Assembly (NCBI RefSeq): GCF_000621585.1
Contig: NZ_KK211310.1
Coordinates: forward strand, 1-64,000
Direction of reading: 5' to 3'
DNA: 64,000 nucleotides
From: [Eubacterium] cellulosolvens LD2006
GTDB lineage: Bacteria; Bacillota; Clostridia; Lachnospirales; Lachnospiraceae
In this document: positions 7,524 to 57,427 of the stretch, one piece after another
How positions within the stretch are numbered: position 1 is the stretch's first letter
Layout of the letters: each line of letters begins with the position of its first letter
The notes under the pieces: model-generated
What the model saw: only the letters and a program-made list of their open reading frames with translations
The model's database searches: none
Told to the model about the DNA's origin: nothing
Program-made: the position numbers and the translations under genes

Positions 7524-7533
7524 TTCTATCAGC

Positions 7534-7617
7534 TGCGGAAGGCGGGACTTGAACCCGCACGACATTGCTGCCACAAGATCCTTAGTCTTGCTCGTCTACC
7601 AATTCCGACACTTCCGC
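7534..7617 (-). tRNA. tRNA-Leu (anticodon AAG), copy 1
   Basis: An 84-base type II tRNA. The acceptor arm GCGGAAG pairs with CTTCCGC, the D-loop contains GGTAGAC, the anticodon stem is CAAGA/TCTTG with loop CTAAGGA (anticodon AAG, reading CUU/CUC), there is a long variable arm, and the T-loop is TTCAAGT. CCA is not encoded. It is identical to the other two copies and shares a transcript with copy 2. Confidence 0.93.
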
Positions 7618-7656
7618 ACGATATGTAATTATTGTGCATCCTTATGTAAAAAAGGA

Positions 7657-7740
7657 TGCGGAAGGCGGGACTTGAACCCGCACGACATTGCTGCCACAAG
7701 ATCCTTAGTCTTGCTCGTCTACCAATTCCGACACTTCCGC
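7657..7740 (-). tRNA. tRNA-Leu (anticodon AAG), copy 2
   Basis: 84 bases, identical to copy 1 over the whole gene. It is the promoter-proximal member of a two-tRNA unit that starts at the promoter at 7791-7819. CCA is not encoded. A small hairpin (GCATCC/GGATGC) lies in the 39-base spacer before copy 1 and could guide processing. Confidence 0.93.
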
Positions 7741-7790
7741 ATATGCACTTTACCTGTCGCCGCGCACTTCTGTACCCGACAACAGGTAAT

Positions 7791-7819
7791 ACAATAACAT
7801 AGTATGTTTGATGCGTCAA
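7791..7819 (-). promoter_or_regulatory. Promoter of the two-tRNA-Leu unit
   Basis: TTGACG, a 17-base spacer and TATTGT on the minus strand. About 60 bases around it are closely similar to the region around the promoter of the third tRNA-Leu gene, showing that promoter and tRNA were duplicated together. Confidence 0.75.
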
Positions 7820-7889
7820 GCACAATTTTCAATTTTTTCATCCTTTTTTAACTTCTTTCAGGCTCTCCCCTTCGTTTACTACATCAAAA

Positions 7890-7928
7890 CAAAAAGAAAG
7901 CCAAAATCATTAACGATTCCGGCTTTCC
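7890..7928 (-). terminator. Terminator of tRNA-Leu copy 3
   Basis: GGAAAGCC...GGCTTTC stem, with further AATC/TGATT pairing inside, followed by TTTTTG on the minus strand. It separates copy 3 from the promoter of copies 2 and 1. Confidence 0.8.
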
Positions 7929-7937
7929 AAAAAAAGC

Positions 7938-8021
7938 TGCGGAAGGCGGGACTTGAACCCGCACGACATTGCTGCCACAAGATCCTTAGTCTTGCTCGTC
8001 TACCAATTCCGACACTTCCGC
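7938..8021 (-). tRNA. tRNA-Leu (anticodon AAG), copy 3
   Basis: 84 bases, identical to copies 1 and 2, but with its own promoter (8070-8098) and terminator. CCA is not encoded. Three identical genes for one anticodon suggest heavy use of CUU/CUC codons or a recent duplication. Confidence 0.93.
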
Positions 8022-8069
8022 ATATGCAATTATTCGTTGCCCTTCTCATTGTGTCCGACAACATGTAAT

Positions 8070-21596: not shown

Positions 21597-22631
21597 TCAG
21601 TCAACCTTGATCTCGTGAATCCAACCTTCCGGAGCCTCCAGATGACCCATCTGAATACCTGTCAGTGTGTCATACAGTTTCTTGATTGTCGGTCCCATCC
21701 CTTCCATACCGCTTGGGATTTTGATCACATTTCCGTGATCGTGAATCTCTCCTACCGGGGAGATAACTGCCGCTGTTCCGCAGAGTCCCATCTCCTCAGC
21801 CTCTTTTACCTCATCGAAGAGCACCGGTCTGTGCTCTACATTCATGCCGAGGATGTGCTCGGCGATGTAGCAGATCGAGCGGCGTGTGATCGAAGGAAGA
21901 ATGGAATCGGACTTCGGTGTGACAAGTGTTTTTCCACCGTCTTTGATGAAGATGATGTTGGCTCCGCCTGTCTCTTCCACCTTGGTTCTTGTGGCAGGAT
22001 CGAGATACATGTTCTCGCTGTATCCCTCTCTGTGCGCTTCCATAATCGGATGAAGGCTCATCGCGTAGTTAAGTCCTGCCTTGATTCCGCCTGTTCCGTG
22101 TGGCGCTGCTCTGTCGAAATCCGGGATTCTTACAACAACCGGCTTTGCGCCGCCCTTGAAGTAAGGGCCTACCGGAGTTACAAGGATACGGAACATATAT
22201 TCCTCTGCCGGCTTAACACCGATTACAGAATTGTAACCGAACATGTACGGGCGGATGTAAAGCGTAGCGCCGGATCCGTACGGCGGTACCCAGTCCGCGT
22301 TTGCCTTTACTACCTGCTCAACGGCCTCGATGAAACGCTCCTTCGGAAATTCAGGCATCTCCAGACGTTTGCAGGAATCGATCATACGATCCGCGTTCAG
22401 ATCCGGGCGGAAGGTGACAATCTTTCCATCCTCGGTTCTGTAAGCCTTGAGACCCTCGAAACATGTCTGCGCGTACTGAAGAACGCAGGCACACTCATTC
22501 ATGCTGATGTTGTGATCCTTTGTGAGTGTTCCCTCGTCCCACTTTCCGTCCTTATACATGGACACGTAACTGTAGTCGGTCTCTAAATATGAAAATCCCA
22601 GGCTTCCCCAGTCGATGTCTTTTAATGCCAT
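21597..22631 (-). CDS. ilvE: Branched-chain amino acid aminotransferase
   Basis: 344 residues, fold-type IV PLP enzyme, last step of Leu, Ile and Val synthesis and first of their breakdown. GTLTKDHNISMNE, CFEGLKAYRTEDG, YIRPYMFG and the PLP-Lys region AGLNYAMSL are recognisable. EEMGLCGTAAVISPVG near the end is diagnostic. It has its own promoter and a strong terminator, so it is a single transcription unit. The gene just upstream is the leucyl-tRNA-synthetase derivative. Confidence 0.95.
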   Translation of the reverse strand: MALKDIDWGSLGFSYLETDYSYVSMYKDGKWDEGTLTKDHNISMNECACVLQYAQTCFEGLKAYRTEDGKIVTFRPDLNADRMIDSCKRLEMPEFPKERFIEAVEQVVKANADWVPPYGSGATLYIRPYMFGYNSVIGVKPAEEYMFRILVTPVGPYFKGGAKPVVVRIPDFDRAAPHGTGGIKAGLNYAMSLHPIMEAHREGYSENMYLDPATRTKVEETGGANIIFIKDGGKTLVTPKSDSILPSITRRSICYIAEHILGMNVEHRPVLFDEVKEAEEMGLCGTAAVISPVGEIHDHGNVIKIPSGMEGMGPTIKKLYDTLTGIQMGHLEAPEGWIHEIKVD

Positions 22632-22787: not shown

Positions 22788-22872
22788 TCTCATTTTTTCC
22801 CTTAACGGAGACTGAAATCAGGATTATGTTTTCTTCCTTTTTCCCTTAACAGAGACAAAATTCAGGATCTTA
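22788..22872. repeat. Partial tandem duplication of a gene's 3' end
   Basis: The last ~30 bases of the gene ending at 22824 (TTAAGGGAAAAA and the preceding TCCTGAATTTTGTCTCTG) recur directly after its stop codon with a few changes. This looks like a slippage duplication. Confidence 0.5.
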
Positions 22873-23738
22873 AGCGGGATATAGACCGCCTTTTCGAAAA
22901 CATCCGGCATCTCCCCGTTTTTGTTGACACCGCTCTTCCGTTTCTCTTTTTCCACAAGTGCCTCTCTTCCCTTCCGGATGATTTCTTCTTCGGAGAGTGA
23001 AGCCGAAAGGCAAAGTTCCGTCCGCAGCTTTCCGTCCACCGATACAGGAAGGCGGAAAAGATCTCCCTCTTCCGTCAGAGATCCGGCGGTCGGCCAGGGC
23101 GCGTCCGCAAGGGGAAGTTCGGAAATCCGGCTCCACAGTTCCGATGCCATCACCGGTGCCAGATCACGAAGAAGAATGACCAGATCCCGGATCGTGCCCG
23201 CATCAACCGCACACTCCTTTGTATGCGTCCAGGTGCCGGTGGGCAGAACCTCTCCGATCCCGACTCCATCCGTCTTCTCACCACTTTTCCGGCAAAGACT
23301 CTCCAACGACTGTCCGCAGCTCCGCAGTTCCCTGCACGCTTTCATGAAAAAGGCCGGTGCGCTTCTCCATCTTCCCTTCTCGCGGCAGACCGTCATTTCC
23401 CGGACGAGGCGGTTCCGGATGCTTCTGATCCCGGTTGTTGCATCGCAATTCTGGCGAAGGGAGAGAACAGCGAGCGCCCAGAATCGTTTCAGAAAGCGGT
23501 AGGCCGCTGCCACCACTTCTTCGTCCCAGTCATCGTTGGTCTTAGGCACCGGGTTGTAGATACAGTAAAGATGCAGGGCGTCAAAGCCGAAATCTGTCAT
23601 CAGATCCGAAGGAAAGATCGCCTTCTCCTTCTGCATCTCCTTCCGGACAACCTCTTCCCATTTCCGCTCGAGCGCCCGGTGATTGTATAATTCGTGATTG
23701 TGATTATCAAGTTTTCCTGTTTGTATATTCGTATTCAT
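22824..23738 (-). CDS. Leucyl-tRNA synthetase derivative lacking catalytic and editing domains
   Basis: 304 residues. Residues 17-31 (LYNHRALERKWEEV) match the N-terminal helix of LeuRS. Residue 45 onward matches LeuRS from just after KMSKS: FGFDALHLY corresponds to YGADTxRLY, and RFLKRFWAL to the start of the anticodon-binding bundle. APVMASELW and APWPT match the end of the bundle, and VDGKLRTEL plus AVYIPLKILNFV match the C-terminal domain. HIGH, the editing domain and KMSKS are absent, so it cannot charge tRNA. A normal LeuRS is about 800 residues. I use the ATG at 23738, because the upstream TTG lies within the preceding terminator and promoter. Binding tRNA-Leu or regulating leucine genes is inference. 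Confidence 0.85.
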   Translation of the reverse strand: MNTNIQTGKLDNHNHELYNHRALERKWEEVVRKEMQKEKAIFPSDLMTDFGFDALHLYCIYNPVPKTNDDWDEEVVAAAYRFLKRFWALAVLSLRQNCDATTGIRSIRNRLVREMTVCREKGRWRSAPAFFMKACRELRSCGQSLESLCRKSGEKTDGVGIGEVLPTGTWTHTKECAVDAGTIRDLVILLRDLAPVMASELWSRISELPLADAPWPTAGSLTEEGDLFRLPVSVDGKLRTELCLSASLSEEEIIRKGREALVEKEKRKSGVNKNGEMPDVFEKAVYIPLKILNFVSVKGKRKKT

Positions 23739-23745
23739 GAAACCT

Positions 23746-23774
23746 ATTATAGAAAGGCAGAAAGATACGCGCAA
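23746..23774 (-). promoter_or_regulatory. Promoter of the LeuRS-like gene, probably leaderless
   Basis: TATAAT at 23746-23751 and TTGCGC at 23769-23774 on the minus strand, 17-base spacer. The expected start (about 23739) is at the ATG itself, so the mRNA would have almost no leader. The -35 begins only a few bases after the preceding terminator. Confidence 0.6.
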
Positions 23775-23776
23775 TA

Positions 23777-23808
23777 ACAAAAGGCCGGCAGCTCAAAAGA
23801 GCTGCCGG
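23777..23808 (-). terminator. Terminator of the EF-G-like gene
   Basis: CCGGCAGCTC, loop TTTT, GAGCTGCCGG, then CCTTTTG on the minus strand: ten perfect pairs. Confidence 0.85.
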
Positions 23809-23854
23809 CGGCAATTGGGTTGATATGTTTATACATGGAGGGATATTACCGTTG

Positions 23855-25945
23855 TCATTCCTCGATCGATGTGATTTTTCCCGCTCTCTCTTCGATCTCC
23901 TTCTCCTGAATATCGGAAGGAGCCTGCTCGTATCTGACGAACTCATACTCGAAGACGCCAGATCCCTGGGTCATGGATCGAAGGGTGTTTGAATATCCGT
24001 AGAGCTCAAGCTCCGGAATATCCGCCTCAATGATGGTGGTTCCATCCTTCGCCGGCGTCATGCCGAGCACGCGGCCTCTTCTCTTGTTGAGGTCGCCCAT
24101 GATATCGCCGGTGTAACCATCCGGTGCCGTCACTTTCAGGTTAACGATCGGCTCGAGAAGGATCGGCGAAGCTTTCATAAAGCCGTCTTTAAACGCCATC
24201 CTCGTCGCGGTCTTGAAGGCCATCTCCGAGGAATCTACCGGATGGTAGGAGCCGTCGTAGAGAACTGCCTTTACGCCGACGACCGGGTAAGCAGCGAGCG
24301 GTCCGGAGAGAACCGACTCTGCGAGTCCCTTCTCGACAGCCGGGAAGTACTGTTTCGGCACAGCTCCTCCGACCACTTCCTCCTCGAAGACGAACGGCGT
24401 GTCCAGATCACCCGAAGGCTCGAAGCGCATCTTTACGTGACCGTACTGACCGTGTCCTCCGGACTGTTTCTTATATTTGGAATCTACGTCGGAGTTCTTT
24501 TTGATTGTCTCGCGGAAAGCTACCTTCGGCTTCGAGAGCTCGATGTCTACGTTGTAGCGCTCTTTCAGTTTTGCGGCAACCACCTCGATCTGCATATCTC
24601 CGATACCGTAGATCAGGGACTGGTGATTTGCGGAGTCTGTGACGATGCGAAGGGTCGTATCCTCCAGCTGAAGTCTGGCCAGACCCTGGGCAACCTTGTC
24701 TACCTCCTGCTTGTTCACCGGTTTGTATCTCTTCGCGGTGTACGGCTTCGATACGGAAATCGGTCCGTAGTCGACCGGTTTTGTCTTGACTGCGAGAGAG
24801 TCGCCGGTTTTTGCCGAGGCGAGTTTCGGAATCGCTCCGATATCGCCCGCGTGAAGCTCCGCAATCTCGGACGGCTTGTTTCCGCAGAGAATGTAGAGTT
24901 TTCCGATCTTCTCCTCGGTGTCCTGCGTCACGTTGTAGAGGACGTCATTGGCTTTGATGACGCCGGAGCAGACTTTGATGATCGAATACTTTCCGAGGAA
25001 AGGATCTGCGATGGTTTTCCAGATCGTTGCAGATTTCGAGAGCGTGAAGTCGTAGTTTGCCTCGAAAATATCGTTGCTGTTGCGGTCGAGTCCCGCGCGC
25101 TCCCTCTGGGACGGATTCGGGAAATATCCGACGATATCGTCCAGAAGAATCTTGATTCCCTGCAGATTGATCGGGGAACCCATGCAGACCGGAACCATAT
25201 CTCCGCTCGCCACGTTCGTCGCAAGGGCTGCTCCGATCTCGGCCGGCGAGAACTCGTCACCGTTGAAGTAGCGGTCCATAAACTCCTCGCTGGTCTCCGC
25301 AACAGACTCCAGCAGAGCGTCTCTATATTCAGAGAGGTGATCCTTCACGTAATCCGGTGTCGGAATCTCCTCTTTCTCATTCTTATTAATGTATCTGCGG
25401 GATTTGTTCTTTACGATATTCACGTATCCGATGAACTTTCCGTTCTCACGAATCGGCATGTGCAGCGGCGCGATTCTCTTTCCGTAAAGATCCTGCAGTT
25501 TCAGTACAACATCACGGTAGGACACGTCGTCGATATCCATCTCTGTAACGAAGATCATACGCGGCAGGTTGTATCTCTCACAGAGATCCCATGCCTTCTG
25601 TGTTCCGACCTGAACCCCGGACTTTCCGGAGATCACGATGATGGCCGCGTCCGCAGCGGCTGCCGCTTCCTCCGCCTCACCTACAAAATCAAAAAAACCA
25701 GGAGTATCCAGAATGTTTACTTTGCACTTTTCCCACTCAACCGGGACAACGGATGTGTTAATTGAGAATTTTCTTTTGATTTCTTCTTTGTCGTAATCGC
25801 TCACCGTGTTGCCGTCGTTGACGCTTCCGAGGCGGCTGGTAATTCCTGACAGATAGGCCATTCCTTCTACCAGTGAAGTCTTACCTGCCCCGCCGTGTCC
25901 GAGCACAACGACGTTTCTCACCCTGTCCGTTCTATAAACCTCCAT
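23855..25945 (-). CDS. EF-G-like translational GTPase (EF-G2 type)
   Basis: 696 residues with all five EF-G-type domains. The P-loop is GHGGAGKTS. The G3 motif reads DTPGFFDF, with Phe where classical EF-G has the catalytic His; Tyr or Phe is usual in the EF-G2/EF-G-like branch. The guanine-specificity motif NKxD reads TEMD, so both Asn and Lys are missing. Domain IV contains GGHGQYGHV and domain V GDIMGDLNKRRGRV. It is therefore a paralogue rather than the housekeeping fusA. It is a single gene with its own promoter and a strong terminator. A stress or late-growth role on the ribosome is possible but not shown. Confidence 0.85.
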   Translation of the reverse strand: MEVYRTDRVRNVVVLGHGGAGKTSLVEGMAYLSGITSRLGSVNDGNTVSDYDKEEIKRKFSINTSVVPVEWEKCKVNILDTPGFFDFVGEAEEAAAAADAAIIVISGKSGVQVGTQKAWDLCERYNLPRMIFVTEMDIDDVSYRDVVLKLQDLYGKRIAPLHMPIRENGKFIGYVNIVKNKSRRYINKNEKEEIPTPDYVKDHLSEYRDALLESVAETSEEFMDRYFNGDEFSPAEIGAALATNVASGDMVPVCMGSPINLQGIKILLDDIVGYFPNPSQRERAGLDRNSNDIFEANYDFTLSKSATIWKTIADPFLGKYSIIKVCSGVIKANDVLYNVTQDTEEKIGKLYILCGNKPSEIAELHAGDIGAIPKLASAKTGDSLAVKTKPVDYGPISVSKPYTAKRYKPVNKQEVDKVAQGLARLQLEDTTLRIVTDSANHQSLIYGIGDMQIEVVAAKLKERYNVDIELSKPKVAFRETIKKNSDVDSKYKKQSGGHGQYGHVKMRFEPSGDLDTPFVFEEEVVGGAVPKQYFPAVEKGLAESVLSGPLAAYPVVGVKAVLYDGSYHPVDSSEMAFKTATRMAFKDGFMKASPILLEPIVNLKVTAPDGYTGDIMGDLNKRRGRVLGMTPAKDGTTIIEADIPELELYGYSNTLRSMTQGSGVFEYEFVRYEQAPSDIQEKEIEERAGKITSIEE

Positions 25946-54806: not shown

Positions 54807-55144
54807 AAAAAAACGCCCCTGTCGAAACGACAGGGACGAGTTATCATCGCGGTACCACCCTGATTCCCGCGCGAACAATCGGATCACCTGCCGATTTTCC
54901 CACGGACTCTCATTGCTGCTGTAACGTGCAGACACGTTTTCTCCTACTGTGAAGGTTCAGAGAAAAAGCTCCGACGCGAACCTCTGGATATGTCTGAACC
55001 CGGGAAAACTTTCAGCCAGTGATTCTCCCTCTCTTGTGGAAAACAGATCCATACTAACGTCTTCAAAGCATTTCTTCTTTTTCAATTGTAAATACATGCC
55101 GATTATCCTTTACTTTTTTTGAACAACCACATCATGCATTAACG
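54807..55144 (-). promoter_or_regulatory. Phe-specific T-box riboswitch of pheST
   Basis: The minus-strand leader contains the T-box GGGTGGTACCGCG (54,848-54,860) and ends in a terminator CGTCCCTGTCGTTTCGACAGGGGCG plus a U7 run (54,807-54,838). In stem I the specifier loop reads GAACC-TTC-ACAGTAGG, with TTC (54,951-54,953) a Phe codon, matching the gene controlled. Uncharged tRNA-Phe should pair with TTC and with the T-box bulge and stop termination. Confidence 0.92.
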
Positions 55145-57212: not shown

Positions 57213-57243
57213 AAAAATCGGAGGCAAGTAAAACTTGCCTCCG
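57213..57243 (-). terminator. Terminator of the probable 6S RNA
   Basis: CGGAGGCAAGT, loop TTT, ACTTGCCTCCG, then ATTTTTG on the minus strand; eleven perfect pairs. Confidence 0.85.
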
Positions 57244-57427
57244 GCCCAGAATGTCGTTCCTGCATTTTGACTCCTAGAAAGAATCTAGGTGGGTTACCTC
57301 AATTGTACTTTTGCCTTCCGCTGCAAACGACGGCCTGACAGCCATACAAGTATATTGGAATCCCGTTTTAAAGTAAATGTAGGTTCAATATAAACAGGGG
57401 ATCGACCACCCCAGGAATTCTTTTGAT
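57213..57427 (-). ncRNA. ssrS: Probable 6S RNA
   Basis: About 200 bases between a consensus promoter and a strong terminator, with no reading frame. The middle reads TTGAACCTACATTT, CGGGATTCC, GTATGGCTGTCAGGCCG and later GGTAACCCACCTAGATTC with a short CCTAGA/TCTAGG hairpin. From memory these strings and the small hairpin on the 3' side of a central bubble fit 6S RNAs of clostridia, but I could not run a covariance model. If not 6S, it is another abundant small RNA. Confidence 0.65.

Follow-up and report, generated by a model that had tools for sequence, protein, structure and literature searches.

Arc1p and Trbp111 are stand-alone, synthetase-type tRNA-binding proteins with OB-type domains, and the leucyl-tRNA synthetase (LeuRS) of Aquifex is a two-subunit enzyme. 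Second genes derived from LeuRS are described in archaea, where LeuRS-I of Sulfolobaceae and LeuRS2 of Halobacteria have affinity for tRNA-Leu and show little or no aminoacylation. Both paralogues still make leucyl-adenylate or some Leu-tRNA and hence keep the catalytic domain, as far as the accessible part of the review states; that part centres on activities evolved from synthetase catalytic sites (PMC9437257). According to the accessible parts of two further papers, a 67-residue piece of human mitochondrial LeuRS, its isolated C-terminal domain, binds both cognate and non-cognate tRNAs and rescues mutant tRNAs non-catalytically (PMC3927953, PMC4370040). A natural core-less bacterial LeuRS is not described in the literature searched, which comprised titles and openings of abstracts and covered few subscription papers.

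The DNA analysed here (the window) comprises 64,000 nucleotides of [Eubacterium] cellulosolvens LD2006. An earlier note, made from the letters alone, had placed a core-less LeuRS gene at 22824-23738. This gene is real: the position holds, the frame of 304 codons is open and the homology to LeuRS was confirmed. As to the strand, the frame runs on the minus strand, from 23738 to 22824, and the plus strand carries stops. The gene and its parts are as follows.

22824..23738, minus strand: core-less LeuRS-derived gene, 304 codons plus stop (protein P0001, 304 aa), by open reading frame, profile, PDB matches, predicted model and codon tests
23625..23690, minus strand: retained LeuRS N-terminal helix, residues 17-38 (YNHRALERKWEEV...), by alignment and predicted model
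23124..23612, minus strand: post-KMSKS segment and anticodon-binding helical bundle, residues 43-205, by profile, alignment and model
22827..23066, minus strand: LeuRS C-terminal domain, residues 225-304, net charge +7, by alignment, model and charge count

In an alignment with 25 complete LeuRS sequences the N-terminal helix, in which E24, K26 and W27 are nearly invariant, is joined directly to the segment after KMSKS, and HIGH, KMSKS and the editing domain are absent. Thus both the fusion proposed earlier (seen in alignment, profile span and model) and the loss of Rossmann core and editing domain were borne out. The bacterial LeuRS profile TIGR00396 matches the protein at 3.3e-15, over positions 596-841 of 843 only. 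With 55.3 bits against a cut-off of 548.4, and with its core absent, the protein is not a functional leucyl-tRNA synthetase; the features of a LeuRS tail (post-KMSKS segment, bundle and C-terminal domain) extend along the whole of its tail, on a model whose alignment included LeuRS rows. The VDGK and YIP..ILNFV hairpins of the C-terminal domain are retained. Best matches in the PDB are LeuRS structures, with that of Neisseria gonorrhoeae at 6.8e-10. The Pfam family Anticodon_1 (PF08264, cut-off 25.1) gives 18.5 bits for the window protein and 20.1 and 28.9 bits for the forms of the congeners G014 and G009, and no match is listed for the G007 form. In the LeuRS-A of G006 (803 aa), HVGH is found at position 48 and KMSKS at 579; similarity to the short protein resumes at about 589, so that roughly residues 25-585 in this numbering are absent from the short protein.

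The comparison of profile and predicted structure with LeuRS that the earlier note had proposed found the homology on all three routes, by TIGR00396, by PDB matches and by the model. The predicted model reaches a pLDDT of 82 with an alignment that includes LeuRS rows; it contains helices at 20-26 and 28-38, with a mean pLDDT of 92 for residues 21-30. Compared with the E. coli LeuRS-tRNA complex, it gives a Z of 18.5 and an rmsd of 4.0 over 227 residues, residues 14-296 being placed onto LeuRS 1-859. The model made from five short forms alone was poor (pLDDT 50), and since the good model needed LeuRS rows, the structural match backs the homology but not independently.

The short gene lies between two further genes, which were both identified over the respective cut-offs; the adjoining ilvE named earlier was thereby confirmed.

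21597..22631, minus strand: ilvE, branched-chain aminotransferase; downstream flank of the old leuS locus
23855..25945, minus strand: EF-G family gene (NF009381); upstream flank of the old leuS locus

The genus sample consisted of 16 genomes, with the window genome as G000. LeuRS-A, the majority type of the family, adjoins ilvE in four of the 16 (G002, G005, G006 and G013), and no LeuRS-B was seen in these, three of which are only 77-82% complete. EF-G lies on the other side of LeuRS-A in both genomes where the contig reaches (G005 and G006), and the LeuRS-A of G002 is split over two contigs. A divergent LeuRS-B is found at a separate locus in 11 of the 16; the assembly of G010 breaks its LeuRS into two frames, and the type was assigned here by similarity, 94% to the LeuRS of G001. 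No full LeuRS was found in G015 (67% complete), which stands outside both counts. The short gene itself lies beside ilvE in five of the 11 LeuRS-B genomes (G000, G003, G007, G009 and G014), so that the search for short homologues in relatives, suggested at the outset, found them in four congeners besides the window genome; in G007 the gene is cut by the contig end at about codon 37 and the part downstream of this point is visible. Within the 16-genome sample the short gene occurs at the ilvE locus only in LeuRS-B genomes. In the other six of these (G001, G004, G008, G010, G011 and G012) the interval from EF-G to ilvE is without a short gene, and a search of the rest of the genome at E 1e-6 gave none either, with G004 being 69% complete. 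At this position G008 (L068) has an unrelated frame that resembles a membrane protein.

Since LeuRS-A adjoins ilvE in four congeners, the short gene is most simply explained by an in-frame internal deletion of LeuRS-A. The earlier note had named full-length homologues at the same locus, pointing to a local deletion under relaxed selection, as the finding that would speak against its interpretation; these homologues do exist, in the four genomes just mentioned. The extent of the short protein also resembles the tail half of a LeuRS, and it might complete a truncated synthetase in trans, as in Aquifex. However, the LeuRS-B of the window genome (G000:C1:430848-433253) is its single complete LeuRS, one match of 805 residues over profile positions 1-843, and therefore nothing is missing from the charging enzyme. 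A two-subunit LeuRS was rejected on these grounds and seems to us most improbable.

Descent of the short gene from the resident leuS (LeuRS-A) between EF-G and ilvE is well supported. The tails of the five short forms score higher against A-side than against B-side LeuRS and form one clade with a support of 97/96. The AU test did not reject a union with LeuRS-A (p 0.39) and was borderline for a union with LeuRS-B (p 0.058), so that the placement of the short forms by the tail tree alone was given up; because this tree does not place their clade firmly, the descent from LeuRS-A rests on locus and similarity. Twenty and 16 of 43 family tails were used in the tail trees. In the LeuRS tree, LeuRS-A falls into the main clade sampled from the family and LeuRS-B into a distant one, under a midpoint root at which two long branches meet. 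This tree left out the broken LeuRS of G010 and four sequences without a KMSKS match (L118, L119, L120 and L122, from G021, G147, G162 and G023), which are complete LeuRS with KMGKRFP where others have KMSKSKGN. LeuRS-B was presumably acquired by transfer, and the order of events proposed here is likewise presumed.

A tree of ilvE, EF-G and exoA, in which many rows are incomplete, separates the four LeuRS-A genomes from the eleven LeuRS-B genomes at 100/100. Both branches with the short gene have sisters without it, G008 (96/99) and G004 (100/100), and the fork that unites the two branches is weak (40/13). One origin in the genus followed by losses is the simplest reading, and it is helped by the nearly equal junction lengths in the alignment of both branches; two origins would be the less simple alternative.

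Selection on the short gene was assessed by pairwise codon models for four pairs from two branches, three of the pairs sharing species. For G000/G007 omega is 0.159, and the three pairs of G003, G009 and G014 gave 0.226, 0.188 and 0.162. In the four pairs an omega of 1 was rejected with LRT values of 98.7, 73.4, 84.7 and 100.7, and an omega of 0.5 with values of 37.8, 21.1, 29.3 and 38.3. Bundle and C-terminal domain each have an omega below 1, and for the C-terminal domain alone 0.5 was not rejected in one of the four pairs (G014/G009, LRT 2.7). All five short frames are without stops, one of them being cut by the contig end, at a pairwise dS of 1.0-1.5 within the branches. They stay in register across several indels, as seen on protein alignments and so not independently. 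A neutral simulation with substitutions only, from codon 38 on, followed 2000 frames: five were still open at 0.3 substitutions per site, and none at 1.0. Omega below 1 and a frame kept across species, in four pairs from two branches, mark a selected protein-coding gene: the short protein is under purifying selection. The dN/dS check proposed beforehand thus came out below 1 in every pair, and the view that the gene is not plain decay was upheld.

The constraint is weak compared with the neighbouring and the replacing gene. In the same pairs ilvE has an omega of 0.016-0.033 and LeuRS-B one of 0.009-0.014, so that omega of the short gene exceeds the first by a factor of 5-12 and the second by a factor of 12-19; a decarboxylase-like neighbour came close to the short gene, with 0.141 over 79 codons in the pair G014/G009. 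The relaxed selection that the earlier note had set against a function is therefore seen in part, as the ratios are high but omega stays clearly below 0.5. These ratios, the lack of the gene in six LeuRS-B genomes and the long indels between the short forms would also fit a slowly decaying relic, with a frame held open by inertia and weak past constraint and with no present function. Against a relic stand the rejection of 0.5 in four pairs from two branches, the five stop-free frames at a dS of 1.0-1.5 within branches and the neutral simulation, which left no frame open at 1 substitution per site, and we consider it improbable, the last of three rivals to a tRNA-binding function, behind a role in protein contacts and, second, a decoy or sensor.

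Evidence on expression comes from the region around the start codon, where two elements precede the gene in the window.

23784..23809, minus strand: terminator-like hairpin after the EF-G gene and before the short gene
23746..23751, minus strand: candidate -10 element, TATAAT, 7 nt upstream of the ATG, read from the sequence, with a poor -35

Because this hairpin follows EF-G and TATAAT then stands 7 nt before the ATG, either the start or the leader is unusual in the window lineage. The claim of an own promoter holds in so far as the TATAAT box is present; the -35 is poor, and a consensus promoter scan did not list this box and pointed to another site, inside the short-gene frame. In all three species of one branch (G003, G009 and G014), an HTH-like gene lies upstream, and its stop shares four bases (ATGA) with the start codon region of the short gene, an arrangement which suggests that the short gene is translated there. 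The HTH-like gene (L009:851-1492, L010:1749-2588, L011:2097-2768 and L069) lies between EF-G and the short gene in these three species and between EF-G and ilvE in G004. HTH models matched it only below their cut-offs, and no Pfam or NCBIfam model matched over cut-off. A search at E 1e-8 gave no relative for the window genome or for G007, and a weak match was seen in G008. Its presence in G004 without the short gene, together with the searches of the window genome and G007, led us to reject it as an obligate partner.

As to function, we predict from these comparisons a free-standing tRNA-binding protein, a chaperone or handling factor, and give this about even chances. An in-frame deletion would have removed Rossmann core and editing domain and joined the N-terminal helix directly to the segment after KMSKS, with bundle and C-terminal domain following on, and with LeuRS-B at another locus now probably responsible for charging. 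As the Rossmann and editing domains sit between N-terminal helix and bundle, removal of the core can leave a compact module for the tRNA body. In LeuRS these retained parts make the contacts to the body and the elbow of the tRNA. The free-standing protein could hold this body and elbow, of tRNA-Leu first and perhaps of others, as a non-catalytic factor. Among the parts conserved in the five forms of the genus are the C-terminal hairpins [VI]DG[KR] and [KR].[VI]Y[VI]P.[KR][IM]LN, which belong to the tRNA-elbow part of LeuRS. It is the kept tRNA-contact parts, these basic conserved hairpins and the precedent of human mitochondrial LeuRS that suggest the chaperone or handling role.

The charge of the protein gives a mixed picture. 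For the C-terminal domain, the net charge of the five genus forms ranges from +2 to +7, compared with a mean of +2.8 (0 to 6) for LeuRS tails, 53 of 56 of which could be cut at the motif. Over the whole protein, three of the six short forms measured are acidic (G007, as a partial sequence, G003 and G190), so that strong RNA binding is not obvious, and G007 has a Cys in the C-terminal hairpin where the other five have Arg. These acidic members, a more distant form in G199 (genus g185) without C-terminal domain, the patchy occurrence, with absence in six of 11 LeuRS-B genomes, and the fast evolution were counted against a role in tRNA binding. Rather than tRNA, the module might have been kept to bind another protein (LeuRS-B, EF-G, the ribosome or the HTH-like protein), its tRNA contacts being unused. 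The overlap with the HTH-like gene in one branch, the several members with a net charge that is not basic, the form of g185 and surfaces that once faced the Rossmann core and should now be free are in line with this; yet the C-terminal hairpins are conserved in five forms, and the search for HTH relatives at E 1e-8 gave none for the window genome and G007, which leaves a purely protein-binding role rather unlikely in our estimate.

The RNA genes of the window include the following.

7532-8022, minus strand: cluster of three tRNA-Leu(AAG) genes whose matched parts are identical
54829-55075, minus strand: T-box leader, 110.4 bits, the one T-box of the window, 31 kb from the short gene
57239-57420, minus strand: match to 6S RNA at 51.0 bits (cut-off 46.4)

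Three tRNA-Leu genes are thus present as described in the earlier note, but they lend no support to a function: related tRNA-Leu genes turned up in every one of the 16 genomes, whether the short gene is present or not. In G007 tRNA-Leu(AAG) is present in two close copies, in most other congeners in one. Since a tRNA-Leu match also lies on the ilvE contig of G002, G006 and G012, which have no short gene, the cluster carries no weight and was rejected as a functional link. Control of the short gene by an RNA element was likewise rejected, with no Rfam match at gathering score nearby or in 15 related loci. The same search bears on a decoy or sensor, which would compete with LeuRS-B for tRNA-Leu or read the charging with leucine and so tune ilvE and leucine metabolism. 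Its neighbours, ilvE in the window and ilvH-ilvC beside a second remnant in G190, would suit such a function, but in the genus the ilvE neighbourhood is already that of the old leuS and hence nothing new; being present also without the short gene, it carries no weight. With the ligand-binding core gone as well, we judge a decoy or sensor to be quite unlikely.

Further core-less remnants of LeuRS were found outside the genus. Among 200 genomes scanned at 1e-15, those with two matches were G000, G056 and G190. The family scan gave a match at 1e-10 in 383 of 397 genomes, and at least five genomes, among the matches listed, had two: G000, G056, G190, G199 and G670; a short frame that is the sole match of its genome might escape notice in this way, and a 312-codon frame from the contig start in G513 lies outside the inspected set. 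On follow-up, G056 and G670 had two whole LeuRS frames each, G190 a frame of 270 codons and G199 one of 230 codons. The phylum scan covered 299 genomes, 295 of them with a match at 1e-12, and the 28 genomes with at least two matches besides the window genome were all re-searched; no further whole free-standing tail was found, pieces of 183, 146 and 134 codons in G480, G426 and G292 lying outside the inspected set. Second LeuRS-like frames of other kinds were seen in genomes that possess a complete LeuRS as well. In family f15 of the same phylum, L166 (G221) and L167 (G330), with 606 and 634 codons, have a first motif resembling HMG[HY]A but lack KMSKS and, to judge from their length, probably the editing domain too; they represent a different, partly degenerate LeuRS paralogue. 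The frame L168:1852-3420 (G441), with 523 codons, has KMSKS and the tail and lacks the N-terminal part; the complete LeuRS of this genome lies elsewhere.

At least two further core-less remnants thus exist in the family, in two other genera, with a similar plan near EF-G. The 270-codon frame of G190, the only member of its genus in the sample, combines an N-terminal helix (RYNHTSIERKW) with the tail and is flanked by ilvH-ilvC on one side; on the other lie EF-G and a frame of 547 codons that belongs to no known family, and a LeuRS-B type enzyme is encoded elsewhere in this genome. This remnant (S_G190) matches A-side and B/C-side LeuRS equally; as its sequence does not choose the LeuRS type, it is locus and architecture that speak for an origin from LeuRS-A. 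In G199 a 226-codon gene directly follows a complete LeuRS of a third type, which itself lies downstream of EF-G, and a class B sortase-like gene comes next. Its N-terminal segment is recognisable (PLNHREIEYHARRL) and the bundle is kept. EF-G stands within the short flanks of four of 18 further complete leuS loci (L120, L124, L129 and L133), which makes an old EF-G/leuS neighbourhood plausible. All seven remnants fall off the B/C LeuRS clade and group together at 74/95 on long branches, the placement of the two outside the genus being unsure, so that the seven may have had one origin or several. A displaced LeuRS may have turned into a core-less tRNA-handling protein in three genera of this family, repeatedly or once anciently, a generalisation we put forward tentatively and hold for possible rather than probable. 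If true, the tRNA-recognition module of a synthetase became an independent factor once it was freed from catalysis.

Synthetase-like proteins with new jobs are already known, and we file the short protein as a synthetase-derived accessory protein of this otherwise known kind. What sets it apart is that the catalytic site was removed and both chain ends for the tRNA body were kept and selected. The genus offers natural controls, with species that carry the intact ancestor, the remnant or neither, through which the cellular role of a lone LeuRS tail and the persistence of a displaced essential gene become testable. The protein could also be a natural counterpart to the C-terminal LeuRS peptides studied for mitochondrial tRNA disease. 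Compared with bacterial LeuRS (TIGR00396; LeuRS-A), it is homologous over N-terminal helix, post-KMSKS segment, bundle and C-terminal domain and lies at the same locus, but is devoid of Rossmann core, HIGH, KMSKS and editing domain. Arc1p and Trbp111 bind tRNA without catalysis, the mode proposed here, with different domains, and no homology is claimed. Unlike LeuRS-I and LeuRS2, as characterised in the accessible part of the review, the short protein has no catalytic domain in the alignment. The C-terminal domain of human mitochondrial LeuRS, in the accessible parts of the reports, is likewise a non-catalytic LeuRS tail with tRNA binding and chaperone-like activity (PMC3927953, PMC4370040); it is, however, an experimental construct and no natural gene, and is made without the helical bundle and the N-terminal helix that the short protein has kept.
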